Of a stretch of DNA of 64,000 bases, positions 25,580 to 43,484 are shown in pieces. The notes below the pieces were generated by a model, which saw only the letters and a program-made list of their open reading frames with translations, was not told the DNA's origin and searched no databases. Origin of the DNA: a virus. A program made the translations under genes and the position numbers. The stretch is from IMG/VR virus record IMGVR_UViG_3300036761_003567, positions 43,224 through 107,223 of that record, one strand, 5' to 3'. Positions within the stretch are counted from its first letter, which is position 1, and each line of letters begins with the position of its first letter.

Positions 25580-26242
25580 ATGGACGCGCCAAAGGTCAAG
25601 AAGTATCCCTTCATCGACGAGGTTGGTTATGTCCCGAATGAGATTATAAAGAAATGGGCGGGGGTCATAGGTAAAATACCCAAAGGGCCTCTGCCCAAAA
25701 TCATCTCAAGCCAGGAAGAATTCGTAAAAGAGTTCGGCACACCCTCACCCGCAAATTCATTCGAGAAGAATTTTACATTTCCCTTGCTCAAGAAAGTGAA
25801 TCCCGGCGTGAATTTCTTCGCCGATAGTCTGGTCAGCGTGCAACCAATGCCGACACCGTCCATGAAAGGGCTGAAGGCAGCCTGGTCCGTAGAGGCTGTG
25901 GAAGACCTAAAGGCGGTTCACGGCATTGACATAGGAGAGCGACTTCAAGAAGAACTGATCCAGGCAATGTCCCAGCAGATGGCCAAAGAGGTCGATGAAC
26001 AGATTCTTAAAGACCTTATAGAGCAGGTCCAGGAAGCGAAGCGTAGGGTGGCGATAAAGGCAGAGGAGAAGAGAAGGGAAGCCGTGTGGCGCAGTACTTT
26101 CAGCGTCATTGGCCGGAGATATTTGGACCCGGAAGAAATAAGAGCCGAAGAAGAGTCGGAAATCGAGACAGTGGAAAGAAAAGTCATCGTGGTCGTGCCG
26201 GACTTGCCGTTCGGATTAGGCTGTAGGCGGGTTCTGGTCTAG
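25580..26242 (+). CDS. protein with a T4 gp23-like capsid segment
   Basis: 220 residues. Residues about 80-150 (VSVQPMPTPSMKGLKAAWSV, EDLKAVHGIDIGERL, IQAMSQQMAKEVDEQILKDL) closely follow the stretch of T4-type major capsid proteins that reads 'LKA.W.IE...DLKA.HG.D.E..L'. The rest of the capsid fold is missing, since T4-type capsid proteins are about 500 residues. It could be a truncated or specialised capsid relative such as a vertex or decoy protein. The full capsid gene is not in the window. Tail overlaps the convergent gene. Confidence 0.55.
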   Translation: MDAPKVKKYPFIDEVGYVPNEIIKKWAGVIGKIPKGPLPKIISSQEEFVKEFGTPSPANSFEKNFTFPLLKKVNPGVNFFADSLVSVQPMPTPSMKGLKAAWSVEAVEDLKAVHGIDIGERLQEELIQAMSQQMAKEVDEQILKDLIEQVQEAKRRVAIKAEEKRREAVWRSTFSVIGRRYLDPEEIRAEEESEIETVERKVIVVVPDLPFGLGCRRVLV

Positions 26243-26428
26243 ATTCGGCAACTCAGGTGGGGCTAGCTGCACAGACTCCCACCGCGGACAGCTCATGTCA
26301 TCCCAGGTGCCTTCCCGGGTATTGGGATTATCGGGAAAAGGCGGCTTCATAGCGCAATCCCCGCAGTTCGTCTGCTGGAATTGCGTATAGTGCTTGCACG
26401 TCTTACAGACCTTTTCTTGATCTGCCAT
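26216..26428 (-). CDS. small zinc-binding protein
   Basis: 70 residues with CKTCKHY, CGDC and a later MSCPRW, a four/five-cysteine pattern seen in small phage proteins of unknown role. Pro-rich tail. Two nt from the upstream minus gene. Confidence 0.65.
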   Translation of the reverse strand: MADQEKVCKTCKHYTQFQQTNCGDCAMKPPFPDNPNTREGTWDDMSCPRWESVQLAPPELPNLDQNPPTA

Positions 26429-26429
26429 A

Positions 26430-26870
26430 TTAGCTCCCCAGCTTGCTCAGGATCTCTTCTGGATTTGCAGCGAAGGTCCTCTCCTGTCCGGTGGACGATT
26501 CCCTTCGGAAGCCGAGGTTCCTATAATACTCTTCCATTCCCGCAATGCTATTGAGCCAAATCTGCTTCTTTGCCATCTTCGCCTTCTCGGCTAGATATTT
26601 CATGAGCATCGATCCGGCGCCCTTCTTCGTGGATCCGAACATGTGCATCCAAATGACCTTCGGTTCCTCAGACCAGGATATGGCACCGATGACCTCGTCG
26701 CTGTCCAGCACGGCAGTCCTGGTCATATCGTCGTTGGTCAGAGCCCCTACGACGAAATTACTATTCTCCTTCTCCAGGTCCACCTGGTCAGCTAGCTCGG
26801 ACTTCGCACCCGGGCGCAGCTCAATAATGCGGTATGAAGGCTCAGCTTCTGTCAATAAGGATAGGCGCAT
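26430..26870 (-). CDS. GNAT-family acetyltransferase
   Basis: 146 residues. The acetyl-CoA loop is GSTKKGAGSMLMKYLAEKA, and the C-terminal EYYRNLGF is the usual GNAT end motif. It would acetylate a small molecule or protein. The ATG is preceded directly by TTATTTT with no ribosome site. Confidence 0.75.
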   Translation of the reverse strand: MRLSLLTEAEPSYRIIELRPGAKSELADQVDLEKENSNFVVGALTNDDMTRTAVLDSDEVIGAISWSEEPKVIWMHMFGSTKKGAGSMLMKYLAEKAKMAKKQIWLNSIAGMEEYYRNLGFRRESSTGQERTFAANPEEILSKLGS

Positions 26871-26904
26871 AAAATAACTTTGCCAATGGAAGAGAAGGGG
26901 AGCG

Positions 26905-27357
26905 TTAGAGGGCGACCGCGGTGAGCTTCTTCTCGAGGTCTTCGAGCGTGCTGTCGTTCTTCACGACTTCGTCTGCGTCGTCTGCGACCAGTTCGTCGGA
27001 GAATCCGCCGTCGACGCCGGGCCTGTCTATCCAGATGACCTTATCGAACAGAGGCCTGACGACTCCGAGCTGCCTTCTGGTCCGTACCCCGGAGACGACA
27101 TCCGCCTCCCGGACCGCCTCATCTACTGGATAGGCTGCGTCCTTTTGCTGCCTAGCAAGGCCATACTCCCAGAGCTGCTTCCGATATGTCTCCTTGTCAG
27201 CCAGGATCTTCTCCGGATCGAGGCCTTTCTTGGCGGCGAAGTCGCGGATGATGTATTTAGAGGTGCTATCGACAACCTTGACACCCAAGATCCTGCCGAG
27301 CATCCGGGTTGCTTCGGTCTTGCCGGACCGCGTGTATCCGAGGACGAGGATTTTCAT
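26905..27357 (-). CDS. P-loop kinase-like protein (dNMP kinase-like)
   Basis: 150 residues from the ATG at 27357. Walker A GYTRSGKTEATR at the N-terminus and a later VIWIDRP fit small nucleotide or adenylate-type kinases; T4 deoxynucleoside monophosphate kinase is the nearest phage comparison by layout. Substrate unknown. A GTATTTAAAT box is 3 nt upstream. Confidence 0.65.
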   Translation of the reverse strand: MKILVLGYTRSGKTEATRMLGRILGVKVVDSTSKYIIRDFAAKKGLDPEKILADKETYRKQLWEYGLARQQKDAAYPVDEAVREADVVSGVRTRRQLGVVRPLFDKVIWIDRPGVDGGFSDELVADDADEVVKNDSTLEDLEKKLTAVAL

Positions 27358-27360
27358 GGT

Positions 27361-27370
27361 ATTTAAATAC
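27361..27370 (-). promoter_or_regulatory. GTATTTAAAT box abutting a start codon
   Basis: The minus-strand order is box, ACC, ATG (27357). Same geometry as 24241 and, on the other strand, 25567. Confidence 0.4.
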
Positions 27371-27438
27371 TTGAACGGATATTCCAGTACCTGGTTTAAT
27401 ATCTTTGCAAACGTATCTAACTCCTCCAGGAGGAAGCC

Positions 27439-27726
27439 ATGGAAGAATTGATGGGACAGCTCCGGCTGCTTCAGAAACAGGATCTGGAGCTTGAGAGGGC
27501 CAAGAAGCGCCTGCGCGAAGTCGAGAAACAGGCCATAAAAGCAGCCTTGACTGTCATCGGCCTCGTCCTTTCCGCGGTCCTCTTCGGCCTGGCTATCGTC
27601 TATTTGGATCTTGATACGCCGATCTGTACCTACCATCTGCTCCTACTATCGCCTTTCCCTTTCATGTGCTGGGTTCAAGGCGTTCAGGGGAAGGAATGGG
27701 AAAAGTTTAAGAAGGACATGGGATAG
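27439..27726 (+). CDS. membrane protein with coiled-coil N-terminus
   Basis: 95 residues. A heptad-like helix (1-35) is followed by transmembrane segments near 36-58 and 64-80, then a charged end. AGGAGGAAG precedes the ATG. A holin- or anti-holin-like function is possible from size and topology, but nothing else supports lysis here. Confidence 0.6.
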   Translation: MEELMGQLRLLQKQDLELERAKKRLREVEKQAIKAALTVIGLVLSAVLFGLAIVYLDLDTPICTYHLLLLSPFPFMCWVQGVQGKEWEKFKKDMG

Positions 27727-27731
27727 GCCTG

Positions 27732-27902
27732 ATGAAACAGAAGAACGCCCTGGAGTCCGGTTTCTGCACGGCGCTTCGCTGCCGGGTATTCGTCAGGAAC
27801 GGGGATGGCGTGCAGTTCGTGGACGGAAAGAAGGAAATCCAGCGCTATTGCTGGAGGTGCTGGCTGCGCAAGGTCTTGGACGTTCCAGAAACGGTGAAGT
27901 GA
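27732..27902 (+). CDS. small cysteine-rich protein
   Basis: 56 residues with CTALRC and CWRC motifs that could bind zinc. ATG overlaps the GATGA after the previous stop. Followed by a clear promoter, so this closes the operon. Confidence 0.55.
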   Translation: MKQKNALESGFCTALRCRVFVRNGDGVQFVDGKKEIQRYCWRCWLRKVLDVPETVK

Positions 27903-27932
27903 TACGCGGTGTCCTCTCTCCACCTCAAATCC

Positions 27933-27962
27933 TTGACCAGGGATTCCTCTATCTGCTAAAAT
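27933..27962 (+). promoter_or_regulatory. sigma70-type promoter
   Basis: TTGACC (27933-27938), an 18-nt spacer, TAAAAT (27957-27962). The spacer contains AGGGATTCC, shared with promoters at 31951 and 55723. It serves the gene at 27989 and the ParB-like gene. Confidence 0.75.
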
Positions 27963-27988
27963 TAGCCAGTGGACAAGGAGATTGACGC

Positions 27989-28741
27989 ATGGACGCGGGA
28001 ACGACGGAAATCTTCAGAGGCCATTTGGACGAGTGCCTAAAGCACCTCGACACCAGGCTGGCCATATTGGCGCCAAGACGCTCAAGGAACTCCGCAAAGT
28101 CCAGGCTGCCTATGGCGATATTCTGCGGTATCCAGGGTAAGTCAATCTTGGAGTGGTTTAACGAGAAAGCCAAGCCCAAGGGTACGCAGCTCTTCAAGTG
28201 CATGTGTTATTTGGACATGATCGGGTACAGGGTCATTGAGCTTGAGAGGACGAAGAGGGTCAAGCGCAACATCGTGGAGCTTATCGGCTTTGGCGTCTTC
28301 TCTTCTCAGCAAGTGACTGAACTCTTGGGTTATGCTTCTTCTTCCCACTTCTTCCGTGCCATGGAAGGACAAGCTGACAAGACCATGGAACAGAAGATGT
28401 GGGATCTTTGGAAGGAGAGAAAGGAGGAGCTCGACAAGAAGAAGCAGGAAGCGAAGCCTCAGGCGATCGTTGTTCCGGCGGCTGCTCCGGCGGCTGCTCC
28501 GGCGGTTATCGTAGAGACGCCACGTGCGCGTGCGGCGAAAGAAGGGACCAGCGGAGACATTCATACGGGTGCCGCAGCTGGCTCTCTCGTCGTGAACTTC
28601 ATGAAGGGCCTTCTGGTCCTCCTTGAGAGTGTCTCCGACGAGTCCCTTCTGAATCTTACGAGGCAGGAATCGGGTATGATTCTCAAACTCTCAGCGCGCA
28701 TGAGCACGCTGAGTTCCAAACTCATTGGAAAGGCTCAGTGA
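27989..28741 (+). CDS. putative DNA-binding regulator upstream of ParB-like gene
   Basis: 250 residues. The segment ELIGFGVFSSQQVTELLGYASSSHFFRAM looks like a helix-turn-helix. Then come a charged helix rich in Lys/Glu, an Ala/Pro linker encoded by repeated GCTCCGGCG, and a C-terminal helical domain. It follows a sigma70 promoter and overlaps the ParB-like gene by 4 nt. The arrangement recalls partition or copy-control operons, but no ParA-type Walker motif exists. Unrecognised family. Confidence 0.55.
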   Translation: MDAGTTEIFRGHLDECLKHLDTRLAILAPRRSRNSAKSRLPMAIFCGIQGKSILEWFNEKAKPKGTQLFKCMCYLDMIGYRVIELERTKRVKRNIVELIGFGVFSSQQVTELLGYASSSHFFRAMEGQADKTMEQKMWDLWKERKEELDKKKQEAKPQAIVVPAAAPAAAPAVIVETPRARAAKEGTSGDIHTGAAAGSLVVNFMKGLLVLLESVSDESLLNLTRQESGMILKLSARMSTLSSKLIGKAQ

Positions 28742-29526
28742 TTATGAAGACAAAGATGGTTGCGATCAAGGACCTGAAGTCCAACCTGTTCGTACGCGAG
28801 TGCCTGAATCAGGATCACGCGCTTCACCTGGCGGCGCTCCTGGAGAACGGTGTCAAGCTGCCGCCGATCAAGGTCAATCCGGAACTCATCGTCATCGATG
28901 GCCGTCACCGAATCGAGGCTCACGACGTCCTCAGCCGTAAGCAGATCGAGGCGGAGGTCGTCGACATCACCGACGAGACGAAGCTCATCGCCGAGGCGTA
29001 TAAGGCGAACATCGGCGGGTCGCTGCTCCCCACCAAGGAAGACACCGAACACACGGTTACGCTCCTGGTGGAGCGTGGCGAGAGCATCAAGACTATCGCC
29101 GAGATGCTCGCGCTTCCTCCCGGCATCACCCGTTCCTATGTCTCAAGTGTGAAATCCATTATTACACGGCGCAACCTCCAACGCGCTGCCGAAATGGTCA
29201 CCAATGACGTACTTTCGACCGCCCAGGCCGCCGAGAAGTACAAAGTCGACCTTAATACGCTCAAGGAGAAAATGGACGGCCGTCGCCATCCAATCAAGCA
29301 CGGCGTTAGGGAACTCAAGGACCAGATCTCCAAGCTCTACCGCTCGACCGCCCAAAGGAACGCCGGAATCTTCAAGGGCCTGCTGCACAAGTACCAGGAT
29401 GCCGTCTTCACGGAGCAGCAGGTTACGGTCTTCATTAAGCATATTGAGGGCCTCCAGGATAACCAGTCTCGCACGCTGCTCAAGTGGAAGCAGCGGTTCG
29501 AGGCTCTGATCAACAATGGCAAGTGA
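28738..29526 (+). CDS. ParB/Srx-fold protein
   Basis: 262 residues. The ParB N-terminal fold is visible, with the box-II-like motif IVIDGRHRIEAH; the residues around it are those used for CTP binding or nuclease action in the superfamily. Next are one or two HTH segments (ESIKTIAEMLALPPGITRSYV and LSTAQAAEKYKVDLNTLKEKM) and a helical C-terminus. GTG at 28738 has close SD spacing; ATG at 28744 is the alternative. In phages such proteins act in partition, transcription or DNA modification systems. Confidence 0.7.
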   Translation: MIMKTKMVAIKDLKSNLFVRECLNQDHALHLAALLENGVKLPPIKVNPELIVIDGRHRIEAHDVLSRKQIEAEVVDITDETKLIAEAYKANIGGSLLPTKEDTEHTVTLLVERGESIKTIAEMLALPPGITRSYVSSVKSIITRRNLQRAAEMVTNDVLSTAQAAEKYKVDLNTLKEKMDGRRHPIKHGVRELKDQISKLYRSTAQRNAGIFKGLLHKYQDAVFTEQQVTVFIKHIEGLQDNQSRTLLKWKQRFEALINNGK

Positions 29527-31895: not shown

Positions 31896-31950
31896 GTTTG
31901 CCCGCGAGCTCGCTCCTATTGTTGTATTGCTCTAGGATACAACGAAATCC

Positions 31951-32024: not shown

Positions 32025-32597
32025 ATGAGGACTTTTCGAGTGGCGCTGAAGAATCCGGTAGACGGCTCGATCACGACAGAAGAGGTCAAAGCAAGCGGAC
32101 TGAAGGAGATCCTGTACAGCGAACGGGTCCAGGCGCTCGTCGAGACGGCCGGATTCTCCTTAACCGTCGAGCCGGTTCCGCACGGGAACTCCAGGATGGT
32201 CGGACAGAAGCGCGTCTCTCGCCGCAGACGGGCCTTCAGTATGTCCGGCGACAAGCAGTGGGAGGGGCGCGTCAGGTGCCACTTCAGCACCAAGACCTGC
32301 CCCGTCTGCGTCAAGGAATCCTGGACGCGGGGGCAGTGCGACGACCACATTGTGGAAGTTCACAAGATGGATGACATCCAGACGGAAGCGGCCCGCGGGC
32401 GGCTGAAGGCCTGGCTTTCTGGGACCGACGCCAAAGCCACCATGGCCAGGATCCGTTCTGCGGGTCATGAGCCGCGGTTCTGCATCCGGACTCTAAAGTC
32501 CATGTGGAAAGCGCTGCCGACCTGGGCCGAGCCCCAGTCGGCAGGGATCGAGAAGGCTCCGGCGACTCCCTCTGATGCTACACTGGCTGGAGGATAA
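32025..32597 (+). CDS. zinc-finger protein leading the modular HTH operon
   Basis: 190 residues. The ATG at 32025 is chosen because GGAGGG lies 8 nt upstream; a TTG at 31992 would be weaker. A C2H2/C-rich finger is visible near residues 80-110 (CHFSTKTCPVC then CDDHIVEVH). Basic stretch KRVSRRRRAF just before. Probably a DNA-binding partner of the three genes that follow. Confidence 0.6.
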   Translation: MRTFRVALKNPVDGSITTEEVKASGLKEILYSERVQALVETAGFSLTVEPVPHGNSRMVGQKRVSRRRRAFSMSGDKQWEGRVRCHFSTKTCPVCVKESWTRGQCDDHIVEVHKMDDIQTEAARGRLKAWLSGTDAKATMARIRSAGHEPRFCIRTLKSMWKALPTWAEPQSAGIEKAPATPSDATLAGG

Positions 32598-33269
32598 ATG
32601 CAGCAGGGCCATCGCCAGGAGAACATGAGTGCTATCATTCAGCACGAGAGGGCCGTCCAGAAATGGACGGCGCTCATGCCGAAGGTCCGGGATCTCATCT
32701 ATGCAGGGAAATCCGTCCAGGAAACCGCCAATGAGCTCAAGCTTGCCTATTCCTATCTCATAGAGTATGTCAAGGAGGACCCGCAGCTCAAGGCCAGGGC
32801 AAGGCAGTCCTGGCTGGAAAAGATGAGTTCGCCTGAGCATAGGGCGCTCCTATCCAGGACCGGACGCGAACGGGCCCAGAACCGGAGCCCGGAGGCCCGG
32901 CAACAGGCGGCTGAACGCACCAGGAAGTGCTGGCAGGATCCCGCCTTCCGCGAGAACCACGTGCGAAAGATCCGCCAGAAGTGGCAGGATCCGGAGTATC
33001 GCGCCAACATGGAACGCAAGTGGAATGATCCAAACTGGCGGGCTAAGCTATCCAGTAGCCTGAAGGGCAGTACTGCCTTCCAGGCTTCCTTCGCGACCAA
33101 GGACACGAGCTTCCGACAGGACCCCGCGTGGCGGGCCCGAGTAGCAGAGAACATGAAGGAGGAATGGAAACGCAGGGGCTTCTGGACCTGGATCAAATCT
33201 TTCGACCCGGAAAAAAGAAAGAGGATACTTCAGGCAATTTATGCCTGGAAGAAGAAGCAACATGCATGA
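32598..33269 (+). CDS. modular DNA-binding-like protein 1 (one HTH)
   Basis: 223 residues. One HTH-like module (LMPKVRDLIYAGKSVQETAN) is followed by four short repeats of the W/F-x-DP-x-(Y/F/W)R-x type (KWQDPEYRAN, KWNDPNWRAK and others) and a C-terminal motif GFWTWIKSFDPEKRKRILQAI. The DP repeats resemble modules that position homing endonucleases on DNA, but no nuclease domain is present. Overlaps the next gene by 4 nt. Confidence 0.7.
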   Translation: MQQGHRQENMSAIIQHERAVQKWTALMPKVRDLIYAGKSVQETANELKLAYSYLIEYVKEDPQLKARARQSWLEKMSSPEHRALLSRTGRERAQNRSPEARQQAAERTRKCWQDPAFRENHVRKIRQKWQDPEYRANMERKWNDPNWRAKLSSSLKGSTAFQASFATKDTSFRQDPAWRARVAENMKEEWKRRGFWTWIKSFDPEKRKRILQAIYAWKKKQHA

Positions 33270-34246
33270 CCAAGTTTGAAGAGTTAGGATCTCACCTCCC
33301 AAGGATCCTAGAGCTTATCAAGGCCCAGGAGACGACGAGGTCTATCCCGCGCATCCTGGGGTGCAGCAGGACAGCCTTTAGGGAGTTCCTTTGGGATCAT
33401 CCAGAACTATGCACGGAACTTAGGGCAAATTATGCGGCCAGGCGGTCAGAAGTAGGTCGCAGGAACGCGCAGCAGGTCATTCAGAAGCGGCTCAGTCTCC
33501 CAATAGAGGAACAGGCCGCTCTGGCCCGGGAAAGGGTCGCTAGAGCCGTCAAGGGTGCAAGGGTTTCTGCCGCACTGGCTCGCGAGAAGTCCAGGCAGAA
33601 ATGGGCGGGGCTCATGCCCAAGGTCTACGAACTCATCAACGCAGGGCAGTCGGTACAGGAAATAGCTGACGAGACTGGTATAGATTTTTCTGTCATATAC
33701 GATCGCCTGAAGATTGATCCACGGCGGTCGGAACTTATGACTAGACTGAGACAGACCCGCTGGGAGCACCTCCACAGTCCTGAATACAGAGCCCTCCATT
33801 GCGAGCTGGCCCGCAAGGAGATGAAGGATCCGGAAGTTATCAGAAAGTTGTCAGAAGCTACTAAGAAGAAATGGTTAGACCCGTCCTTCCGTCAGGCTGC
33901 CGTACAAGTAGCATGTGCGAACTGGGAGCGCCCAGAGTATCGAGCGCGCATGGAACGCCTCTGGAACGACCCGAAGCACCGGGCGATGCTCGCGGCACAC
34001 ATAGCCGAGCAGCGGAAAGACCCGGTCTTCATCGCCGCCTGTAGAAACCGGGACACGAGCTTCATGAAAGACCCGGAGCACCTGGCACTGATGTCCGAGG
34101 TCATGAAGAAATGGTGGAGCACTAGGGATTTCTGGGCTTGGGTGGATACGTTCCCGCCAGAAAAGAAGAAGCAGATCCTGTGCGCCATACATGCGGGGCG
34201 CGCTACGGCCGCGACTAACTGGAAAAGGTACAAACATGATTCATAA
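33266..34246 (+). CDS. modular DNA-binding-like protein 2 (two HTH)
   Basis: 326 residues from the ATG overlapping the previous stop. An extra N-terminal HTH module of a second type (HLPRILELIKAQETTRSIPR) precedes a module like protein 1 (LMPKVYELINAGQSVQEIAD). About six DP repeats (KWLDPSFRQA, LWNDPKHRAM) and the same end motif DFWAWVDTFPPEKKKQIL follow. No catalytic residues seen. Confidence 0.7.
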   Translation: MTKFEELGSHLPRILELIKAQETTRSIPRILGCSRTAFREFLWDHPELCTELRANYAARRSEVGRRNAQQVIQKRLSLPIEEQAALARERVARAVKGARVSAALAREKSRQKWAGLMPKVYELINAGQSVQEIADETGIDFSVIYDRLKIDPRRSELMTRLRQTRWEHLHSPEYRALHCELARKEMKDPEVIRKLSEATKKKWLDPSFRQAAVQVACANWERPEYRARMERLWNDPKHRAMLAAHIAEQRKDPVFIAACRNRDTSFMKDPEHLALMSEVMKKWWSTRDFWAWVDTFPPEKKKQILCAIHAGRATAATNWKRYKHDS

Positions 34247-35387
34247 TTGGAACGAGTTGATGTCTAAGATCCGAGAGGCCATTTTAGCCGGCAAGTCCGT
34301 CCAGGAAATTGCCAATGAGTTAGGCCTGGGTTTCGGAGCCGTCTACCATCACATCAATGAGGACCCCGCGCGCAACGAGCTAAGGGCAAAGCTGTACGAG
34401 ACGCGCCTAGCAAACTATAATACTCCTAAGTATAAGGCAGCTCTGCGTGCCAGGCTAACAGGGCGCATGCGCGTCAAGTATTACGAGATAGGCGATCATC
34501 TTTCCAGGATTCGAGAACTAATTGAGGCCGGAACGGCCGCGCGCGACATTCCTTCCCTATTAGGTTGTGGCGCATCTTCGTTTTTCAAATGGCTGAAGGG
34601 TCAGCCAGACCTTCTTGCCGTCGCGAAGGCATTCCAAAGGGCCAAGATGAAGGAAGGTAAACAACAAGCAGACCTTCGGCTCAGTGCTGAAGAGCGAGAG
34701 GCCCGTGCTGCCCATCAGCGGGAAGTTGTCAGGAGAACCTACGAACGCTGGCGGGCTAGATCTAATAAGGAATGGGCCGATCTCGCACCCAAGGTCAAGA
34801 GCCTCATTTTCTCCGGTGAGACGATAGTGGACGTCGCCGTTATGACTGGCATAAATGAGAAGGCACTTGGCGCCCGTATAGATGCGGATCCTCAGCGTGA
34901 CGAATTAAGGGAAAAGCTGTATGAAAACTGGCTTGCGCGTATTAACACTCCCGAGCATAAGGCACTACTCTCTCAGAATATGAGTAGACGTATGGAGGAC
35001 CCAAAAGCCAGGGAACATCTATCCCAAGTCACTAAAGAGCAGTGGGAATGTGGCGTTCATGATGGCCACTCTGAATTCATGAAAGAGCTCTGGAAGGACC
35101 CAAAATTCCGAGCCGTGTTGGAACGCCATGCGCGGAGTCCAGAAAGGCGAATGCAGTCGTCCGAAAGGATTAAGGCTTTGTGGCGTGATCCTGCCTTCGT
35201 AGCGGCTTATTTGGAATCTAGAAAGTCTCCTGGATTGCGGGCTAAGCTATCGGAATCCTTAAAAGAGTCTTGGAGCCATAGGGATTTCTGGGAATGGCTC
35301 AATTCGTTCGATCCAGATAAGCGAGCGGAAATCCTGAGAGCAATGCATGCTTCCAACGCGGCCCGCAGGGCCTTAAGATTGGCCTAG
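34236..35387 (+). CDS. modular DNA-binding-like protein 3 (three HTH)
   Basis: 383 residues. Module order is type A (LMSKIREAILAGKSVQEIAN), type B (HLSRIRELIEAGTAARDIPS), type A again (LAPKVKSLIFSGETIVDVAV), then DP repeats (LWKDPKFRAV, LWRDPAFVAA) and DFWEWLNSFDPDKRAEILRAM. The three paralogues thus carry one, two and three HTH modules before a common C-terminal half. Overlaps the preceding gene by 11 nt. Confidence 0.7.
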   Translation: MIHNWNELMSKIREAILAGKSVQEIANELGLGFGAVYHHINEDPARNELRAKLYETRLANYNTPKYKAALRARLTGRMRVKYYEIGDHLSRIRELIEAGTAARDIPSLLGCGASSFFKWLKGQPDLLAVAKAFQRAKMKEGKQQADLRLSAEEREARAAHQREVVRRTYERWRARSNKEWADLAPKVKSLIFSGETIVDVAVMTGINEKALGARIDADPQRDELREKLYENWLARINTPEHKALLSQNMSRRMEDPKAREHLSQVTKEQWECGVHDGHSEFMKELWKDPKFRAVLERHARSPERRMQSSERIKALWRDPAFVAAYLESRKSPGLRAKLSESLKESWSHRDFWEWLNSFDPDKRAEILRAMHASNAARRALRLA

Positions 35388-35757: not shown

Positions 35758-36114
35758 ATGCTTACCCTGCTTACTCGCAAGCAGATCGAGGCACTCACCG
35801 ACGCGGAGGCCAGCAAGTATCTGGCCGAGAAGGTGATGGGGTGGACATTCTCCTACGGCACCTGGTGGACGGGAGATATCAGCCGAACGAGTTCTTATGC
35901 CGCCCAGTTTGCCACCGATCTCAACCAGGCTGTCGAGGCGGCGGGGAAGATGGGGCTGGAATTAGAGGGATTGACTTTTGGTCTCGTCTGGAATTTAGGT
36001 ACGAAGAAGTGGATGGCCGGATGGGGTGCCGTAGTGGATTGGATGTCGCATAGCGCCCCCGCCCGCGCCGTCTGCAATGCAGTCATTGCAGCCCATGAGG
36101 CGAAACATGCTTAG
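35758..36114 (+). CDS. phage ABA-sandwich-like protein 1
   Basis: 118 residues. Start 'LTRKQIEALTDAEASKYLAEKVMGW', a middle YAAQFATDLNQAVEAAGKM and the end ARAVCNAVIAAHE fit the phage ABA-sandwich family (GxELDxLVAExVMGW ... ICxAALxA). Function of the family is unknown. GGAGG precedes the ATG; overlaps its paralogue by 8 nt. Confidence 0.65.
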   Translation: MLTLLTRKQIEALTDAEASKYLAEKVMGWTFSYGTWWTGDISRTSSYAAQFATDLNQAVEAAGKMGLELEGLTFGLVWNLGTKKWMAGWGAVVDWMSHSAPARAVCNAVIAAHEAKHA

Positions 36115-36607
36115 CCAGAAACAAATAGCAGCGATGACCGACGACGAGGCAGACGTCTTCATTGCCTCCAAGATCCTCGGCATGACATGGAAGTCCTGGT
36201 CCTGGGACAAGGAGGGGATGGACCTCGTCTGGCCGTCTCCCAAGCCTTATGCCGATGACCACGGCTGCTGGGAGCGCGACGACCGCGCTACCGGAGGCGT
36301 CTTCGAAAGCGAGTGGGTGAACATCCCGGATTCCCACTCCTGGACGCCCGCCCGATGCATTGATGACGCGATGGAGGCGGTCAAGAAGATAGGGCTGCGC
36401 CTGCGCGTCGGCAAGCGACCTGCTCTCACCGGGCGCTTTAGCCTGATCTACCACGAAGAGCTTGACCTGTGGGTAGCCGGGTGGTTCTACGTCGTAGGAA
36501 CCGCGGATGACGCGTGGAACGAGGTCGACTGGGAAGGCACTGCCAAGCACCCCGCCCGTGCCGTCTGCAACGCGGTGATTGCGGCCCATGAAATGAAAGG
36601 GAAATAA
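36107..36607 (+). CDS. phage ABA-sandwich-like protein 2
   Basis: 166 residues, paralogue of the preceding gene: MLSQKQIAAMTDDEADVFIA at the start and HPARAVCNAVIAAHEMKGK at the end. The middle is longer and carries a Pro/Trp-rich insert. A tandem duplication with divergence is the simplest origin. Confidence 0.65.
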   Translation: MLSQKQIAAMTDDEADVFIASKILGMTWKSWSWDKEGMDLVWPSPKPYADDHGCWERDDRATGGVFESEWVNIPDSHSWTPARCIDDAMEAVKKIGLRLRVGKRPALTGRFSLIYHEELDLWVAGWFYVVGTADDAWNEVDWEGTAKHPARAVCNAVIAAHEMKGK

Positions 36608-36889: not shown

Positions 36890-37099
36890 GTGCCAGAAAA
36901 TCCTGACCTCGGCTTGCGCCCTACGCAGCTACGCTTCCTGCGGCTGGAACCCGAGAGGTCCCTGACCGAGAAGCTGGACTTAGCAGTAGCCGCCCTCCAG
37001 GCGGTCTGCAAGGAAGACGGGCCCGGATGCGACCTTTCGCCAGCTGGACCCTGCTTTCACATCGCCGCGGAAGCACTGCACAAGATCGTCATCAAGTAA
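36890..37099 (+). CDS. small hypothetical protein
   Basis: 69 residues from a GTG with AAGGAAGAG upstream. Two cysteines and helices; no recognised domain. Confidence 0.5.
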   Translation: MPENPDLGLRPTQLRFLRLEPERSLTEKLDLAVAALQAVCKEDGPGCDLSPAGPCFHIAAEALHKIVIK

Positions 37100-37113
37100 C
37101 CAGGAGGCACAAA

Positions 37114-38115
37114 GTGGGCGACCCTACAAGTCACGAGGCGCGAATTGATGCACTGACCGACGAGCGGGATGCACTGAAGGCCGGAGTAAACGGTCTAGTG
37201 CAGGAACGCGATATGTTGCGGACTCGGATAACCTGTGTGGAGGCCGCATACGAGAAACGCATCGCCACTCTGACTGCTGAGCGGGATGCGCTGAACAAGA
37301 TCGTCAATAGCCAGGAGGCTAAGGTGCCTGAAACAATCCGCGAAGGGCTCGTCAAGAAGGGTGGAGTGAACGAACCTCCCACGACGCCTCGACCGCCTCC
37401 TCCTAAGGGGCAATGTCCGCCTCCCGTGGAAGGATTTCATGACGGGAAACGATGCCCCTGCGAGTTCGAGGAAATCGAGCCCTGCGGCAGGATGTGCTCC
37501 TGCCGGAACCCGAATATGAGCGGTGCGTGTCGTCGCTGCTGTACTGTCGGATCTCCCGAGCAGCAACTGGCGAAGGCCCGGTGGCTGGTAGCCCGGGAAA
37601 TAAACTTCACTATCCTGACCCGCGAAGAGGCCATTGACAGGATCGGGAAGCTGGACGATCCCAAGCTTCGTCCGCTGATCAAGTGGATAGCGGAATCCCT
37701 GGCGTTCGGGCGGGTAGCTTATGACGTCAGGGTCAACATAGCTGAGGCAGAAAGGTCTGTGGAGAGGATCGTGGAAGGCCAAAACCCTGGAATCCCTGCT
37801 GGCGGCCTTGCTGACCATACACCCGACGTGAAGAAATGGCCCCCTCTGGACCCCGGTACGAAGGTGAAGACCACAAAGCCTTTCTGGTCTGGCCGCGGTG
37901 ACTGGACCGGAGAAGCTCTGGCGTCCAGGAAATGGGGCGTCAAGGGGACTATCCTCAAGCATCATGACTCCCACGGCCTTTGTTACGAAGTCCAGCACGA
38001 TGACGGGACGGTGGGCCATTATGACCCTTCGGAACTGGAAGTCCTAGACATATATCTGGACGTCCGGCCGGAGTGCTACCGCTCCAGGACGTCGCGCATC
38101 CGGGAGAAGAAATGA
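37114..38115 (+). CDS. coiled-coil and cysteine-rich multi-domain protein
   Basis: 333 residues from a GTG behind AGGAGG. The N-terminal coiled coil contains two DERDAL-type repeats, similar to 29648. Then follow a Pro-rich linker (TTPRPPPPKGQCPPP), a cysteine cluster (CPCEFEEIEPCGRMCSC...CRRCC), a helical part and a C-terminal SH3-like region (GTKVKTTKPFWSGRGDWTGE...YEVQHDDGTVGHYDPSEL). Looks like an adaptor; function unknown. Confidence 0.65.
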   Translation: MGDPTSHEARIDALTDERDALKAGVNGLVQERDMLRTRITCVEAAYEKRIATLTAERDALNKIVNSQEAKVPETIREGLVKKGGVNEPPTTPRPPPPKGQCPPPVEGFHDGKRCPCEFEEIEPCGRMCSCRNPNMSGACRRCCTVGSPEQQLAKARWLVAREINFTILTREEAIDRIGKLDDPKLRPLIKWIAESLAFGRVAYDVRVNIAEAERSVERIVEGQNPGIPAGGLADHTPDVKKWPPLDPGTKVKTTKPFWSGRGDWTGEALASRKWGVKGTILKHHDSHGLCYEVQHDDGTVGHYDPSELEVLDIYLDVRPECYRSRTSRIREKK

Positions 38116-38684
38116 ACCTATCCAGGGAGATACGAAGGGAGCTTAAGCGCCTCCGCCGCCAATATAGGTGGGAGCTCGCCCATGGCTTCATCAAGGACCC
38201 TACAACGGGGCTGGACCTATACCGCATGTGCTCTACCACTGCTGCCATCTTCGTCTGGGAGTTCGGGGGTAAGCTCACGGGGTACCTCCATCAGCGCGGC
38301 CCCCGACCTAACAACAGTGCCGTGATCGTTGCGAAGGGGCTGGGTCACGACTTCTGCCTCATCGACGGCCGCTGGCTGGTGGACTTCTGGGCGTGGACCG
38401 GCCACTGCCTCCCCTTCCGCGAGCGCGACTTATACGACCTCCAGAATCCCAGGGACGACGCCATAGTCGACTACCTTTATGGGGACAGGTCCACCTGGAT
38501 GGACACATACGATACCTACATGAACGGATGCGGTCTAGACGTCCTGGGCGATCACCTGGGGATCGTCAGGCGGATCGGCTATTCGATCGTGATCAATGGA
38601 GGCCTGCCGCTCACCGAGCGAATTGCACATGCAAACAGGATGAGGGGGAACAAATACGCGAGGGAGATGGGCTGGTCAGCTTGA
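38112..38684 (+). CDS. hypothetical protein
   Basis: 190 residues, ATGA overlap with the upstream gene. Features IDGRWLVDFWAW and YLYGDRSTWMDTYDTYMNG, but no family recognised. Last gene before the composition boundary. Confidence 0.65.
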   Translation: MNLSREIRRELKRLRRQYRWELAHGFIKDPTTGLDLYRMCSTTAAIFVWEFGGKLTGYLHQRGPRPNNSAVIVAKGLGHDFCLIDGRWLVDFWAWTGHCLPFRERDLYDLQNPRDDAIVDYLYGDRSTWMDTYDTYMNGCGLDVLGDHLGIVRRIGYSIVINGGLPLTERIAHANRMRGNKYAREMGWSA

Positions 38685-38738
38685 TGTGTGCTGGCCAATA
38701 AGAAGCTTGACCAGCTAGTCCGCAGTACTTATCCCACC

Positions 38739-38902
38739 GTTCGAAGCCTCCGCGTACGCGCGTGACGCGTCCAGAATCTCAAAAAGCTGATTCTCTCAAA
38801 GCTGATTCTCTCAAAAGCTGATTCTCTCAAAAGCTGATTCTCTCAAAAGCTGATTCTCTCAAAAGCTGGTCAGCGGCATAGTTCGAAGCCTCCGCGTACG
38901 CG
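38739..38902 (+). repeat. 22-bp direct repeats flanking an iteron array
   Basis: An exact 22-bp sequence beginning GTTCGAAGCCTCC occurs at 38739-38760 and 38881-38902, and bounds the 16-bp array. It ends in CGTACGCG, itself a near-palindrome. No gene is read in 38685-39223 (538 nt). Confidence 0.9.
38786..38864 (+). repeat. five tandem 16-bp iterons
   Basis: Unit GCTGATTCTCTCAAAA repeated five times without spacers (the first lacks one A), with a partial unit before and GCTGGTCAGC after. Direct AT-richer repeats in a GC-rich setting resemble replication-origin or centromere iterons. The spacing excludes a CRISPR. Confidence 0.9.
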
Positions 38903-38929
38903 ATGCGCTCGCCGAGAAGCGATCCGAAA

Positions 38930-39110
38930 CGGGACCGGCCGCCCGCCCCCCGCCCGGGCCCCTGGGGGCGGGGGGCAGCACGCCCCCCGGGCCCGCCGGC
39001 CCGGCCCACCCCCCGCCCCCGGCGGGGCGGCGCGACCCCCACCCCCGGCCCCAGCCAAACCCCCCCCCCCACCGGGGGGACCAGCAGCACCCGGACCCCA
39101 GCCCGCCGCC
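38930..39110 (+). other. extreme C-rich tract (G-quadruplex potential on minus strand)
   Basis: The plus strand has runs of up to 13 C and many CCCC blocks, so the minus strand offers several G4 tracts. It sits just right of the iteron array. It could be a replication pause or packaging signal, or a sequencing problem region; reading frames through it are biased by composition and not trusted. Confidence 0.6.
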
Positions 39111-39223
39111 GTCCCGTCTCGGCGGCGCGCCGGAGTCCGCCGCGTCCGGCCCCGTGCCACACCTCCGCGTGTCCGGCGGTGTGTCTCGGCCCAGCCGGTC
39201 CGGCAAACCAACGGAGGCTGCCA

Positions 39224-39532
39224 ATGGCAAGCGCCACCGCCGTCCGCCCCGTCGTCTCCGCCCTCGTCGGCCCCGTGTCCGCCCGCCCCCGCCCGCTCGT
39301 CCGCCCCGTCCGGCCGGACTTCCGGCTCTGCGACCTCCGCGTCCCCCCGCTGACCGAGCCCCAACTGCTGGCCCGCTACCCGCACATGATCCCCGGCACG
39401 CTCCGGCGCGACCCCGTCGCCAACAAGAACGCGGTCGACATCCGGTGCGCGTGCGGAGCGGTCCGGATCGTGTACACCTCGGACCTGTTCCACGTCCGGG
39501 CGTGCCGCGCCTGCAAGGCCTCCGGCAAGTAG
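39224..39532 (+). CDS. zinc-ribbon paralogue A (TSDL family)
   Basis: 102 residues. ATG at 39224 follows CGGAGG; the open frame further left is a composition artefact. After an Ala/Pro/Arg N-terminus comes LLARYPHMIPGT, then CACG, VYTSDLFHVRACRACK: two Cys pairs around a TSDL motif. Paralogues lie at 40924 and at the C-terminus of 50647. Likely binds nucleic acid or a partner through the ribbon. Confidence 0.65.
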   Translation: MASATAVRPVVSALVGPVSARPRPLVRPVRPDFRLCDLRVPPLTEPQLLARYPHMIPGTLRRDPVANKNAVDIRCACGAVRIVYTSDLFHVRACRACKASGK

Positions 39533-39571
39533 TCGCCCCGCGTGATCCCACGTGCGATCTTTGCGACCGGG

Positions 39572-39606
39572 CCCACCCAGCAACCTGCGCTGGGTGGGCC
39601 CATCTG
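39572..39606 (+). terminator. long hairpin after 39224
   Basis: GGGCCCACCCAGC and GCTGGGTGGGCCC form a perfect 13-bp stem with a 7-nt loop. An outer CGACC/GGTCG can extend it. No T-tract, so RNA-stabilising or processing roles are possible. Confidence 0.55.
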
Positions 39607-39617
39607 GTCGTGAAACA

Positions 39618-39645
39618 CCCCTTCCTGCTCGACCCCAGGAAGGGG
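39618..39645 (+). ncRNA. hairpin with CTCGACCC loop, copy 1
   Basis: Perfect 10-bp stem CCCCTTCCTG/CAGGAAGGGG with the 8-nt loop CTCGACCC. A second hairpin at 40236 has the same loop on an unrelated perfect stem. It lies 27 nt before the ATG at 39673. Same loop with different paired stems suggests a selected RNA structure. Confidence 0.6.
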
Positions 39646-39672
39646 AGTTCCACGTCCATTAGGAGACCAGAC

Positions 39673-39855
39673 ATGAAGCGGATCACGCCCAAGATTCGCG
39701 GGTACGCCTCGAGAGCAGATCGGGAGCGGGCCATCAAGCAGCTGTTCAGGAAGGGGTGGAATCACTTCGTCTGCTTCAGGGACGTACAGAGCGAGTTCGC
39801 GCTCCAGTACGGCCTCGCGCTCTGGGCCGGCAATTCCCCGTACATCCTGCGTTAG
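39673..39855 (+). CDS. small basic protein (RAIxQLxRKG family, copy 1)
   Basis: 60 residues: RGYASRADRERAIKQLFRKG then WNHFVCF. A paralogue is encoded at 50436; both lie next to a TSDL zinc-ribbon gene, so the pair is probably a duplicated module. The fold looks like a small alpha/beta domain. Function unknown. Confidence 0.6.
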   Translation: MKRITPKIRGYASRADRERAIKQLFRKGWNHFVCFRDVQSEFALQYGLALWAGNSPYILR

Positions 39856-39865
39856 GAGACCGAAC

Positions 39866-39964
39866 GTGCAGAAGGCGGAGCAGACGGAGGAAGGGCGGGC
39901 GACTGCCACCCTCGGCGTGCTCGCGTTCGTGGCGATCCTGGCGATTCTGTGGCTGATCCTTTAG
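39866..39964 (+). CDS. single-span membrane peptide
   Basis: 32 residues from a GTG 8 nt after AGGAG: VQKAEQTEEGRATAT followed by LGVLAFVAILAILWLIL. A typical short tail-anchored helix. Overlooked easily because of its length and GTG start. Confidence 0.5.
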   Translation: MQKAEQTEEGRATATLGVLAFVAILAILWLIL

Positions 39965-40000
39965 TGCGCTAAAGGATCATATATTGAGGAGGGCAGGTAC

Positions 40001-40222
40001 ATGAACCGCTGGACGCTGCTCCGCGCGGCCACGCACACGTACTCGGCCAAGACCGTTGAGGTCCTGGTCGGGAAGGCGCAATTGCCCACCCTGGTGCAGG
40101 TGGGCACGATCATGAAGGACGACCGCACCGTCGCGGAGGAGTTCGCCATGGACCTCGCCATCGAGGGGCTCTACCCCTTGGACTGCGGGGACCACTGGCG
40201 CGTCTACAACATCGCGGCGTAG
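40001..40222 (+). CDS. small hypothetical protein
   Basis: 73 residues behind GAGGAGG. Helical with HTYSAKTVEVLVGKAQ near the N-terminus. No recognised domain. Confidence 0.6.
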   Translation: MNRWTLLRAATHTYSAKTVEVLVGKAQLPTLVQVGTIMKDDRTVAEEFAMDLAIEGLYPLDCGDHWRVYNIAA

Positions 40223-40235
40223 CCGGCGCGCAAGG

Positions 40236-40263
40236 CCGCCTCCCTCTCGACCCAGGGAGGCGG
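40236..40263 (+). ncRNA. hairpin with CTCGACCC loop, copy 2
   Basis: Perfect 10-bp stem CCGCCTCCCT/AGGGAGGCGG with the loop CTCGACCC, identical to the loop at 39628. It is 37 nt before the ATG at 40301. Confidence 0.6.
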
Positions 40264-40300
40264 ATTTGCTTGCCGTATACCTCTTTTCAGGAGGGCAGAC

Positions 40301-40465
40301 ATGCCCCGCGTCAAGATCGTGGAGAGCGAGAAGCGGTTCCGGCGCGAGCCGGACCGGGCCTCGACCCTGCGCTTCTCCGTCATCGAGCGGCTGGGACCCG
40401 ACGCCCAGGAACGCCGTGAGCAGGAGCCGGAGTTCCTGCAGGCCCAGGCCGAGGGACGCGCGTAA
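40301..40465 (+). CDS. small charged protein
   Basis: 54 residues, MPRVKIVESEKRFRREPD..., strongly charged helix. TTTTCAGGAGG precedes the ATG. No family recognised. Confidence 0.55.
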   Translation: MPRVKIVESEKRFRREPDRASTLRFSVIERLGPDAQERREQEPEFLQAQAEGRA

Positions 40466-40498
40466 GCAAGCCCCGACAAGACAGAGGGTTCCCACACC

Positions 40499-40521
40499 CC
40501 TGCACGTTCACTCGTGTCAGG
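40499..40521 (+). ncRNA. leader hairpin with TTCACT loop, copy 1
   Basis: CCTG/CAGG and CACG/CGTG stems close a TTCACT hexaloop with one T bulge; 57 nt before the ATG at 40578. Closely related to 41294 and to hairpins at 42083 and 43379. A second small hairpin CCTCT/AGAGG at 40560 masks part of the ribosome site. Confidence 0.55.
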
Positions 40522-40577
40522 AACTGGGCACTCTGGCTCTGACGTTTTGCGAGCGGCGGCCTCTTTCAGAGGGTCCC

Positions 40578-40736
40578 ATGCCAGAGGATTTCGCCCTCAA
40601 ACCCGACCAGGTGAAGAGCCTGGCCGCGGCAATGGCCCTGTTGTACAAGATCTGCGACGGCTCGAACGAGTCCGTGCGTCAGGAAGCAGATCCGATCGCG
40701 TCGCTCTTGCGGAACTTCATCGCCAGGCACAAGTGA
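40578..40736 (+). CDS. small hypothetical protein
   Basis: 52 residues, helical, MPEDFALKPDQVKSLAAAMA. The 112-nt leader holds two hairpins. Function unknown. Confidence 0.55.
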   Translation: MPEDFALKPDQVKSLAAAMALLYKICDGSNESVRQEADPIASLLRNFIARHK

Positions 40737-40749
40737 GGAGGGTCAGGCC

Positions 40750-40875
40750 ATGACGAAGACCGAGCGAGTCATGGTGGCGAAGGTCGCCCGCGAGATTCGC
40801 GTCGTCATGCGCACCGTCGGCCGTCATGAGAACGGGAAGGTCAGGGTCTGGATTCGCCAGACCCTCACGCGCTGA
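40750..40875 (+). CDS. very small basic protein
   Basis: 41 residues behind GAGGAGGG: MTKTERVMVAKVAREIRVVM ending RVWIRQTLTR. Basic amphipathic helix then strands, which could bind nucleic acid. Unknown. Confidence 0.5.
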   Translation: MTKTERVMVAKVAREIRVVMRTVGRHENGKVRVWIRQTLTR

Positions 40876-40923
40876 TGTGTGTCCGTTTCCACTTCTTTCT
40901 CAACTCTCTACAGGAGGTGTACC

Positions 40924-41232
40924 ATGGCGCCCGCCATCGCCGCCCGCCCGCTCGTGGAGGCCGTGAAGGTCTCCAAGCCGTTCCCGAAGGACGCCCTGTG
41001 GGCGCAGAAGAAGGGCCCGATCTCGGAGGCCCAGATCCTCGCGAAGCACCCGCACGCGATCCCCGGGACGCGCCAGTACGACGTCGTGGCCAGGAAGTGG
41101 GCCATGACGATCCAGTGCGCCTGCGGCGCCACGCGGATCGTCTACACCTCGGACCTGCACCACGTCCGGACCTGCCGGGCGTGCAAGGCCAAGGCCGACG
41201 CCGCCAAGGTGGCCGTCGCGGTCCAGGCGTAA
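40924..41232 (+). CDS. zinc-ribbon paralogue B (TSDL family)
   Basis: 102 residues. ILAKHPHAIPGT, CACGATRIVYTSDL and CRACKAKA align without gaps to 39224. AGGAGG lies before the ATG after a pyrimidine-rich tract. Conserved positions are the two Cys pairs, Pro-His, Gly-Thr and Thr-Ser-Asp-Leu. Confidence 0.65.
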   Translation: MAPAIAARPLVEAVKVSKPFPKDALWAQKKGPISEAQILAKHPHAIPGTRQYDVVARKWAMTIQCACGATRIVYTSDLHHVRTCRACKAKADAAKVAVAVQA

Positions 41233-41247
41233 GCCTCTGCTCGCCAT

Positions 41248-41271
41248 GGGACCGGCAATCTTGCCGGTCCC
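41248..41271 (+). terminator. perfect inverted repeat after 40924
   Basis: GGGACCGGCA and TGCCGGTCCC with loop ATCT, a 10-bp stem; no T-tract. Likely the 3' end or stabiliser of the preceding message. Confidence 0.55.
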
Positions 41272-41282
41272 ACAAGCCAGGA

Positions 41283-41324
41283 GCATCCACCCACCTGCAC
41301 GTTCACTCGCGCAGGACCTGGATG
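41283..41324 (+). ncRNA. leader hairpin with TTCACT loop, copy 2
   Basis: An outer GCATCCA/TGGATGC stem encloses CCTGC/GCAGG (41294-41298 with 41311-41315) around the TTCACT loop. The loop and lower stem match 40499 while the outer arms differ. It lies about 55 nt before the ATG at 41377. Confidence 0.55.
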
Positions 41325-41376
41325 CTGATCAGCCAGTCCGTCTTCCACTTTCTTGTGGCTCCGACAAGGAGGCTCT

Positions 41377-41637
41377 ATGACCACGCCCGCCCAGCCGCTC
41401 GTCGTCGCCGAGGCCGCCACCAAGGTCGCCAAGATCGCCAAGGCCCCCCGCAACGTGAACGTCACTGTCGCGGACGGGAAGCTCACCCTCGTCGTCGACC
41501 TGTCCGTCAACCTCGGACCCAGCTCGTCCGGGAAGACGAACCTCATCGCCTCCGGCACCGCGAAGGTCGCCGGCTACGAGGGCGTGAGCTTCGGCCTCAA
41601 CGTCTTCAAGAAGGCGAAGAAGGCCGACAAGAAGTAG
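41377..41637 (+). CDS. hypothetical protein
   Basis: 86 residues, beta-rich (NVNVTVADGKLTLVVDLSVN) with Lys-rich tail. AAGGAGG precedes the ATG. Its stop is immediately followed by structured element A. No recognised family. Confidence 0.6.
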   Translation: MTTPAQPLVVAEAATKVAKIAKAPRNVNVTVADGKLTLVVDLSVNLGPSSSGKTNLIASGTAKVAGYEGVSFGLNVFKKAKKADKK

Positions 41638-41643
41638 GCTCAT

Positions 41644-41739
41644 GGTCCAACGGGCGCGGCCGGACAAACGGGCGGACCGGAGGTGACCAAACCGGGAAAC
41701 CGGCGAAGGGGCCTCGCCCGCCGGCCGCGCTTTTGGGTC
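41644..41739 (+). ncRNA. structured element A, copy 1
   Basis: Outer GGTCCAA/TTGGGTC and inner GCGCGGCCGG/CCGGCCGCGC (41654-41663 with 41721-41730), next CGGGCG/CGCCCG and a hairpin CCGG-GAAA-CCGG with a GNRA tetraloop. Copy 2 at 43141 keeps the flanks but has different, still paired arms. The TTTT after the main stem also fits an intrinsic terminator with a large branched loop. Confidence 0.6.
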
Positions 41740-41791
41740 CTGATCCCGCGGAGCGAAAGCTCCCTAGTCTCACATGACCAGAGGAGGGCAA

Positions 41792-41869
41792 ATGCCCCGA
41801 AAGTGTCGATCGCCCCCGGCCAATCCGCCTGAGAGATCCGCCGTGAGCCAGAGTGCCACGGCCGGTTGA
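41792..41869 (+). CDS. possible 25-residue peptide
   Basis: ATG behind GAGGAGGG, MPRKCRSPPANPPERSAVSQ, stop at 41867-41869. The ribosome site is good but composition is biased and no homologue is recognised. Could be a leader peptide for element B. Confidence 0.25.
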   Translation: MPRKCRSPPANPPERSAVSQSATAG

Positions 41870-42009
41870 GGCACGTCAGGCACCCGAACAGGGGTAGGCG
41901 AATGCCGAGAACCCCAGAAAGGTAGAGATCGAATACTCCTTACATAGCGCCACCTCCAGAGTGCCCATATAAAGGAACGGTTTGAAGATTTCTCGTTTCC
42001 CCGGGCAAG

Positions 42010-42123
42010 AGGTGGCGAACCGGTTCAGGACCGGCCTGACCGCGACGAGGACAGGACGTATAAAACCTGTCCGCTCCGGCTCCGCCAGGACACCGTTCAT
42101 TCGGGTCTGGCGTCCCGTCGCGG
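42010..42123 (+). ncRNA. structured element B, copy 1
   Basis: CCGCGACG/CGTCGCGG (42040-42047 with 42116-42123) closes a junction with two hairpins: GGACAGG/CCTGTCC (42049-42055 with 42066-42072) and CGCCAG/CTGGCG (42083-42088 with 42107-42112), whose tip is CCG-TTCATT-CGG. Sequence blocks AGGTGGCGA and CTGACCGCGACGA recur at 43329-43374. It ends 32 nt before the ATG at 42156. Confidence 0.6.
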
Positions 42124-42155
42124 GGAGATCGGCCCCTTTCCAGGAAGGTGAAAAT

Positions 42156-42311
42156 ATGGACGAGCTGACGCAGCAGATGCGGGACCGGCTGGTCGAGATC
42201 CTGCTGACCAGCTCGAGAGATGAGGCGATCAAGTACCTGCGCAGGCAGGGCGTCCCCGAGGACCGGGCCATCGTCTACGTCGACGACGAGGAGAACCGGC
42301 TTCTCGCGTAG
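42156..42311 (+). CDS. small hypothetical protein
   Basis: 51 residues: helix-rich MDELTQQMRDRLVEILLTSS then VPEDRAIVYVDDEENRLLA. AGGAAGG precedes the ATG. Downstream of structured element B, which may control it. Confidence 0.55.
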   Translation: MDELTQQMRDRLVEILLTSSRDEAIKYLRRQGVPEDRAIVYVDDEENRLLA

Positions 42312-42697
42312 GTCGGCGCACAAATATGGGTCCGAACGATGACCGAAGTTCGGTATCCATGAAGAGAAAGGTAACCTGTTGGCAAGGACGGGGTTTCCTT
42401 GCCATTCCGAGTGCCACGGACGGGCATTGGATCGGCAATTGCCAACCTGTTCATCAAGCAACTAATTCCGACGGACGGAAAGGCTGGACGGCTGGTCAGC
42501 AACGTTCGGGCCGGAAACACGTGCGACGCGGTCGTTTCGAGAGTTTCGGGTTGTCGCGGTCTGGCAGGACCAGCCCGACCAGCAGACCAGCACCCGGCCT
42601 CTTGGATCAATTCTTCAACTCACACGCTGACACGGACCAGTTTGGACCGGTCACGGACGCCCCGGGAAGGGGAAGTGGCCACGTTTCAGGAGGGGAC
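42312..42697 (+). other. 386-nt gap with hairpins
   Basis: No gene is supported here. A hairpin GGCAAGG/CCTTGCC lies near 42381-42403 and several shorter inverted repeats follow (for example around ATCGGCAATTGCC at 42431). It ends in TTTCAGGAGGGG before the ATG at 42698. No clear copy of elements A or B was found. Confidence 0.5.
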
Positions 42698-42958: not shown

Positions 42959-42989
42959 CACAGTTTCCGGCCTTTTCAGGAGATGGGAC

Positions 42990-43410: not shown

Positions 43411-43484
43411 CGCGAGTGGGCTGGTCTCCGATCTCTCAGTGTTATCAGGACGTCCTTACTCTTGTGTCTCTCCCGGATCAGGAA

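Follow-up and report, generated by a model that had tools for sequence, protein, structure and literature searches.

What do three consecutive, overlapping viral genes encode when their products share a C-terminal half and differ in the number of HTH units that precede it? The genes lie in a window of 64,000 bases, the whole stretch of DNA analysed here, which corresponds to bases 43224–107223 of the 107,223-base viral record IMGVR_UViG_3300036761_003567 (Table 1). On balance, the three proteins are probably nuclease-free, sequence-specific DNA binders made from homing-endonuclease modules, and most likely regulators. Translation and alignment confirmed the three consecutive overlapping genes of the preliminary description, and the alignment agrees with both of its architectural claims, an N-terminal module order of A, B-A and A-B-A in genes 1, 2 and 3, and a C-terminal half common to all three proteins, in which DP repeats are followed by an FW-x-W-x3-F-x-P-[ED]-K end, the cap. 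An upstream zinc-finger gene ends directly at gene 1, its stop codon abutting the gene 1 start, so the cluster is a run of four genes; a match of its product to L053 was rejected as a chance match to a structural protein. Between the cluster and its divergent upstream neighbour lies a dyad with perfect 7-bp arms, the sole match in the window, which is a weak candidate for an operator since it was noticed after the fact. Promoter and terminator scans returned nothing above chance, and no Rfam intron was found in the window.

Table 1. Window positions of the gene run, the upstream dyad and the parts of the three proteins.
Feature	Position	Strand	Details
Candidate operator dyad GTTGTAT-N9-ATACAAC	31921..31943		divergent intergenic region upstream of cluster
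Upstream zinc-finger gene	32025..32597	+	190 aa; C2H2-like motif CPVC-x11-H-x4-H; without known family; GGAGG before ATG 32025
Gene 1	32598..33269	+	223 aa: HTH A, DP repeats, FWxW cap; GGAGG just 5' of ATG 32598; alternative start ATG 32625
Gene 1 HTH A	32652..32783	+	model helices to residue 35, 40-47, 51-60; pLDDT 82-89
Gene 1 DP chain	32817..33176	+	four units, 13.5-17.5 bits each
Gene 1 FWxW...FxPEK cap	33165..33266	+	alignment
Gene 2	33266..34246	+	326 aa: HTH B, HTH A, DP repeats, cap; likely start ATG 33266; 4-nt ATGA overlap with gene 1
Gene 2 HTH B	33272..33403	+	unit alignment
Gene 2 HTH A	33590..33721	+	weak Pfam HTH_7 / HTH_23 matches, below cut-off
Gene 2 DP chain	33773..34117	+	DP profile
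Gene 2 cap	34115..34243	+	alignment
Gene 3	34236..35387	+	383 aa: HTH A1, HTH B, HTH A2, DP repeats, cap; likely start ATG 34236; overlaps gene 2 by 11 nt
Gene 3 HTH A1	34236..34367	+	model helices 5-17, 22-29, 33-42
Gene 3 lone DP-like element NTPKYKAAL, after A1	34419..34463	+	weak, 0.1 bit
Gene 3 HTH B	34476..34607	+	model helices 82-97, 102-109, 113-121
Gene 3 HTH A2	34761..34892	+	model helix ending at 192, then 197-204, 208-217
Gene 3 DP chain, degenerate	34944..35273	+	DP profile; short helices between 239 and 347
Gene 3 cap	35271..35384	+	alignment

The record is that of a tailed phage, given its large conserved genes (tail sheath, an SbcC-like nuclease subunit, a polymerase of the DNA polymerase III type and a UvsX-like recombinase). 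For one of its proteins the only similar phages are two uncultured ones, of 485 and 595 kb, and for this reason the 107-kb record may be incomplete and come from a very large phage. Searches found no near relative at the DNA level and no related genome without the insert for comparison. At about 38000–40000 of the window, GC rises from about 0.54–0.60 to 0.65, with third-position GC reaching about 0.9, and the genes to the right are short with functions that were not recognised; the jump may mark the edge of a module or a join made during assembly. Just beyond the cluster, two adjacent genes (35758–36111 and 36077–36604) have similar N-termini, and the first matched the Phage ABA sandwich domain close to threshold.

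The DP repeats, with the motif W-x-D-P-x-[YF]-R, were scored with a profile of 93 units taken solely from proteins of other genomes. Genes 1, 2 and 3 reached 48.6, 16.8 and 10.9 bits, compared to 4.8, 6.4 and 6.8 bits for the best of 200 shuffles of each protein. Gene 1 has strong repeats, which become increasingly degenerate towards gene 3, and the units vary throughout the three proteins and are irregularly spaced. Only the three genes were recovered when the record was searched with gene 1. The relatives comprised 38 loci from a profile scan of viral contigs and five from cellular genomes, most with a GIY-YIG domain N-terminal to the DP chain. Among the 36 aligned relatives, 15 matched the Pfam GIY-YIG model, 22 matched PHROG 314 (‘homing endonuclease’) and 29 matched PHROG 22215, as do all three window proteins. 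Elsewhere, DP repeats occur beside Vsr-like or DUF559 domains (SP-15 gp103, L036), beside HNH domains (L025, L038) and in gyrase A inteins (L047, L048), several of the nuclease-domain assignments among the relatives having been made by eye.

As the viral relatives are mostly GIY-YIG fusions and the others involve Vsr-like/DUF559 domains, HNH domains or gyrase inteins, the DP chain is very probably, judged from sequence, a DNA-binding module of homing endonucleases, and the profile of these mostly nuclease-bearing relatives matches all three window proteins above their shuffles. The likeness to the DNA-reading modules of homing endonucleases, proposed earlier, therefore holds, DP repeats being found in the DNA-binding part of such enzymes. 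NUMOD3 (PF07460) is likewise a short repeat of GIY-YIG/HNH homing endonucleases and occurs with DP units within one protein (L007), but the DP repeat starts W-x-D-P and the Pfam NUMOD3 model did not match the three proteins even at E 10. A solved DNA complex of a DP repeat was sought and none was found.

Several other arrangements were seen among the relatives. In L047 and L048, from Chloroflexota MAGs, the DP repeats lie mid-intein, where the intein endonuclease would sit. The viral proteins L019 and L020 combine DP repeats, a Vsr-like nuclease segment (assigned by eye) and a Mom-type acetyltransferase domain in one chain, the last with Pfam support in L020. Two small Dehalococcoidia proteins (L045:9758-10228 and L049:3934-4308) have a CxxC zinc-ribbon-like part and DP repeats without a nuclease, and are possible cellular nuclease-free cases. 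The 241,648-base virus record of L007 and L042 (G005) has at least eight separate DP-repeat ORFs, several behind GIY-YIG domains.

AlphaFold2, run on an alignment of the three sequences, returned all-helical models in which each HTH unit forms the three-helix fold (pLDDT about 80–91), each DP unit is one helix of about 10–16 residues, making the chain a string of short helices, and the cap is a short helical piece. The pTM of 0.30–0.35 indicates a low global confidence, and the models can be trusted only for the HTH units and for their helical character. A DNA-binding-like fold is accordingly predicted in the models, the lack of which had been named in advance as counting against DNA binding. 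The predicted isoelectric points are 9.8–10.4, with a net positive charge. Foldseek matches were local and non-significant, none passing E 0.001 in the PDB and viral libraries, and were mostly to HTH regulators; they included LuxR-type HTH, SpoIIID, 2lvs and a phage DUF559 protein, the last with a probability of 0.96 in the viral library. The top PDB match by E-value was the CRISPR-repeat binder 2lvs (E 0.57, not significant), which we take to be Cbp1, a CRISPR-repeat-binding protein with three HTH units; Cbp1 shares the tandem HTH units in one small DNA-binding protein, but is archaeal and lacks both DP repeats and cap. A match to the PDB 8vd6 ‘CAP repeat’ (E 8e-9) was not accepted as homology, being the sum of five individually insignificant HTH-like repeats, and GerD, SIR2, FlgM and similar Pfam/PADLOC matches were weak or below cut-off.

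No Pfam HTH model scored above cut-off on the three proteins. The A and B units have a weak identity to one another (15–22%) and look like two subtypes of one HTH unit, and the idea of a family in which such units are combined in differing numbers is borne out. At the DNA level, direct repeats were limited to the A unit (78 nt, 72–77% identity) and the cap (80 nt, 60–71%). The best-conserved parts among the copies are the cap and HTH helices 1 and 2. IMG/VR was scanned for the exact architecture with single proteins and with profiles, using the whole proteins, the A unit, the cap and gene 2, and no close relative emerged, nor was a protein with A/B units and an FWxW cap found anywhere searched; the six HTH units, aligned together, proved too diverse to serve as a search query.

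The copies are under purifying selection. Between copies, the C-terminal half has a pS of 0.74–0.78 compared to a pN of 0.37–0.44, and since pN is well below pS the duplicates have been kept as proteins, though the ratios are rough because dS is near saturation. In the three closest A units, the predicted reading helix and turn are 18% identical compared to 64% for scaffold helices 1 and 2 (helix limits from the AlphaFold2 model), random choices of columns being as low in 0.01% of trials (column permutation P = 0.0001), and the reading helix also has the higher pooled pN, 0.54 compared to 0.24 for the scaffold. This is the pattern that duplicated binders with changed targets would show, in a comparison of three sequences, and as the scaffolds are conserved and the predicted reading helices diverged, each copy probably recognises a different site. 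Relaxed constraint alone may also produce such divergence. The term ‘programmable-like’, used for these proteins at the outset, is not supported here: no modular repeat-to-base code is indicated of the TALE kind, where a variable residue pair in an otherwise constant repeat reads one base, and the helix divergence shows only that the specificities probably differ. Along the array, third-position GC drops from 0.73 to 0.55, and the copies may therefore not all have the same origin or age.

A similar set occurs in the unrelated contig L012 (IMGVR_UViG_3300017527_000075), where 4053 bases hold four consecutive ORFs, each with DP chains; wherever the ends of these ORFs are included, an HTH at the N-terminus and a domain at the C-terminus are conserved, the latter showing no nuclease signature. 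An hhalign comparison of the HTH-to-DP stretch with the window proteins matched in order (probability 98.8%, E 4e-17), a score that owes much to the repeats, and here too the reading helix is variable (25% vs 65%). The L012 proteins thus resemble the window proteins as tandem nuclease-free products with HTH, DP chain and conserved end, but they carry one HTH each, longer DP chains, a different N-terminus and an unrelated end domain, a kinship of that domain to the FWxW cap having been rejected (hhalign 18%).

Nuclease loss is common in homing-endonuclease life cycles, and the increasing degeneracy of the DP units from gene 1 to gene 3 would fit three decaying remnants that have lost their function along with their nuclease. 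The three ORFs, however, are intact and tightly overlapping with plausible ribosome-binding sites, pN is well below pS between the copies, the cap is conserved, the duplication products are intact, and a parallel tandem set exists in L012, all of which make decay unlikely.

Pfam, PHROGs, NCBIfam and the predicted fold reveal no catalytic domain in the three proteins, in line with the initial impression that no nuclease residues were visible; no hidden one appears in the C-terminal half, where its presence was to count against the original reading, and the models contain no beta sheet. GIY-YIG, HNH, HNH_3 and DUF559 domains are absent across the whole 107-kb record (a crude GIY-YIG motif count was unreliable and was kept out of the evidence), and the only homing endonuclease seen in it is that of a LAGLIDADG-type intein, which interrupts a helicase gene about 47 kb from the cluster. 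These absences, from a record that is itself maybe a fragment, weigh against a split homing endonuclease acting in trans, with the three proteins as targeting subunits for a nuclease encoded by another gene. L046, where the same HTH-DP design is joined to a C-terminus that looks nuclease-like by eye but matches no Pfam family, and the separate zinc-finger motif of the neighbouring gene, of a kind found in SP-15 gp103, lend such a split enzyme some plausibility, but it is rather improbable.

The intein lies outside the window (L051:6096-8972, record bases 26096–28972) and apparently sits inside the DEAH-like motif of the helicase (VDE/CFHPHT...SLVSN/CHQM). The record also has a split DNA polymerase III alpha-type gene (L068, record bases 37000–45000; N-part 37526–38878, C-part 41298–43403), and the roughly 2.4 kb between its parts contain two ORFs, a fragment resembling an intein (GITPVDPVDC EYVFKID...) and some 0.9 kb in which no clear gene is seen; no Rfam intron was found at the split.

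The DP chain could instead be an oligomerisation rope, the proteins being ordinary HTH regulators or oligomers like packaging small subunits. A sub-threshold resemblance between the GerD core and the DP repeats (E 2e-4 to 0.005) and a local HTH similarity to phage terminase small subunits point that way, but the GerD match is below cut-off and is shared by authentic DP-repeat homing endonucleases, the repeats occupy the position of a DNA-binding module behind GIY-YIG, and three tandem small-terminase genes would be odd, with no packaging gene seen beside them; this is quite improbable. It is highly improbable that the proteins are whole homing endonucleases whose catalytic domain, for example in the FWxW cap, escaped recognition: the cap is without known family and matched in conservation only by HTH helices 1 and 2, but it is about 35 aa with two short helices, has no conserved acidic/His/Asn cluster able to bind metal, and is replaced at the same place in L012 by its unrelated end domain.

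The window proteins have their nearest counterparts in phage-borne enzymes, the GIY-YIG DP enzymes (PHROG 314; for example gp69 of Burkholderia phage FLC6) and gp103 of Bacillus phage SP-15, with the same W-x-D-P-x-[YF]-R repeats and beads-on-a-string DNA-binding half; those enzymes carry a GIY-YIG or Vsr-like C-terminal domain, whereas the window proteins carry neither and are tandem paralogues. The DNA-binding domains of T4 endonucleases have been described as beads on a string, and that of I-TevI, a modular domain of zinc finger, helix and HTH, acts alone as an autorepressor, repressing its own promoter without cutting where no suitably spaced cleavage sequence is present (PMC2988022). I-TevI differs as a single intron-encoded enzyme with an active GIY-YIG domain and without a DP chain, for which repression is a second job. 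By analogy, a protein keeping only the DNA-binding half could only occupy or repress, and site-specific DNA occupancy is proposed for the window proteins on that basis.

We infer that the three proteins bind DNA at distinct targets, and conjecture a regulatory role. In the proposed mechanism, one to three HTH units, DP helices that probably track the DNA and a small end cap would form a beads-on-a-string binder; the array would have arisen by tandem duplication plus gain or loss of HTH units; and with HTH scaffolds kept and DNA-reading helices diverged, each copy would probably settle on a different site. The proteins would occupy DNA as transcriptional repressors or regulators of phage genes, possibly of their own cluster, or of host genes. 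It is possible, though doubtful, that modular homing endonucleases had their nuclease removed, their DNA-binding half tandemly copied and their reading helices diversified, with at least two origins (this phage and L012). The modules themselves were already known; the limited literature searched contained no tandem nuclease-free sets whose reading helices diverge.

Homing endonucleases are regarded as a source of transcription factors, as for WhiA, a transcription factor related to them (PMC3781837), and the plant AP2/ERF factors proposed to come from them, but intermediate stages are rarely seen. Both examples are cellular, involve the LAGLIDADG and HNH-AP2 nuclease classes, respectively, and are not HTH-DP proteins. 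If the proposed explanation is true, the tandem nuclease-free copies would be such an intermediate stage, inside a phage. They would also provide a natural set for learning how chains of HTH units and DP helices recognise long DNA sites, a question relevant to the way in which homing endonucleases acquire new targets.
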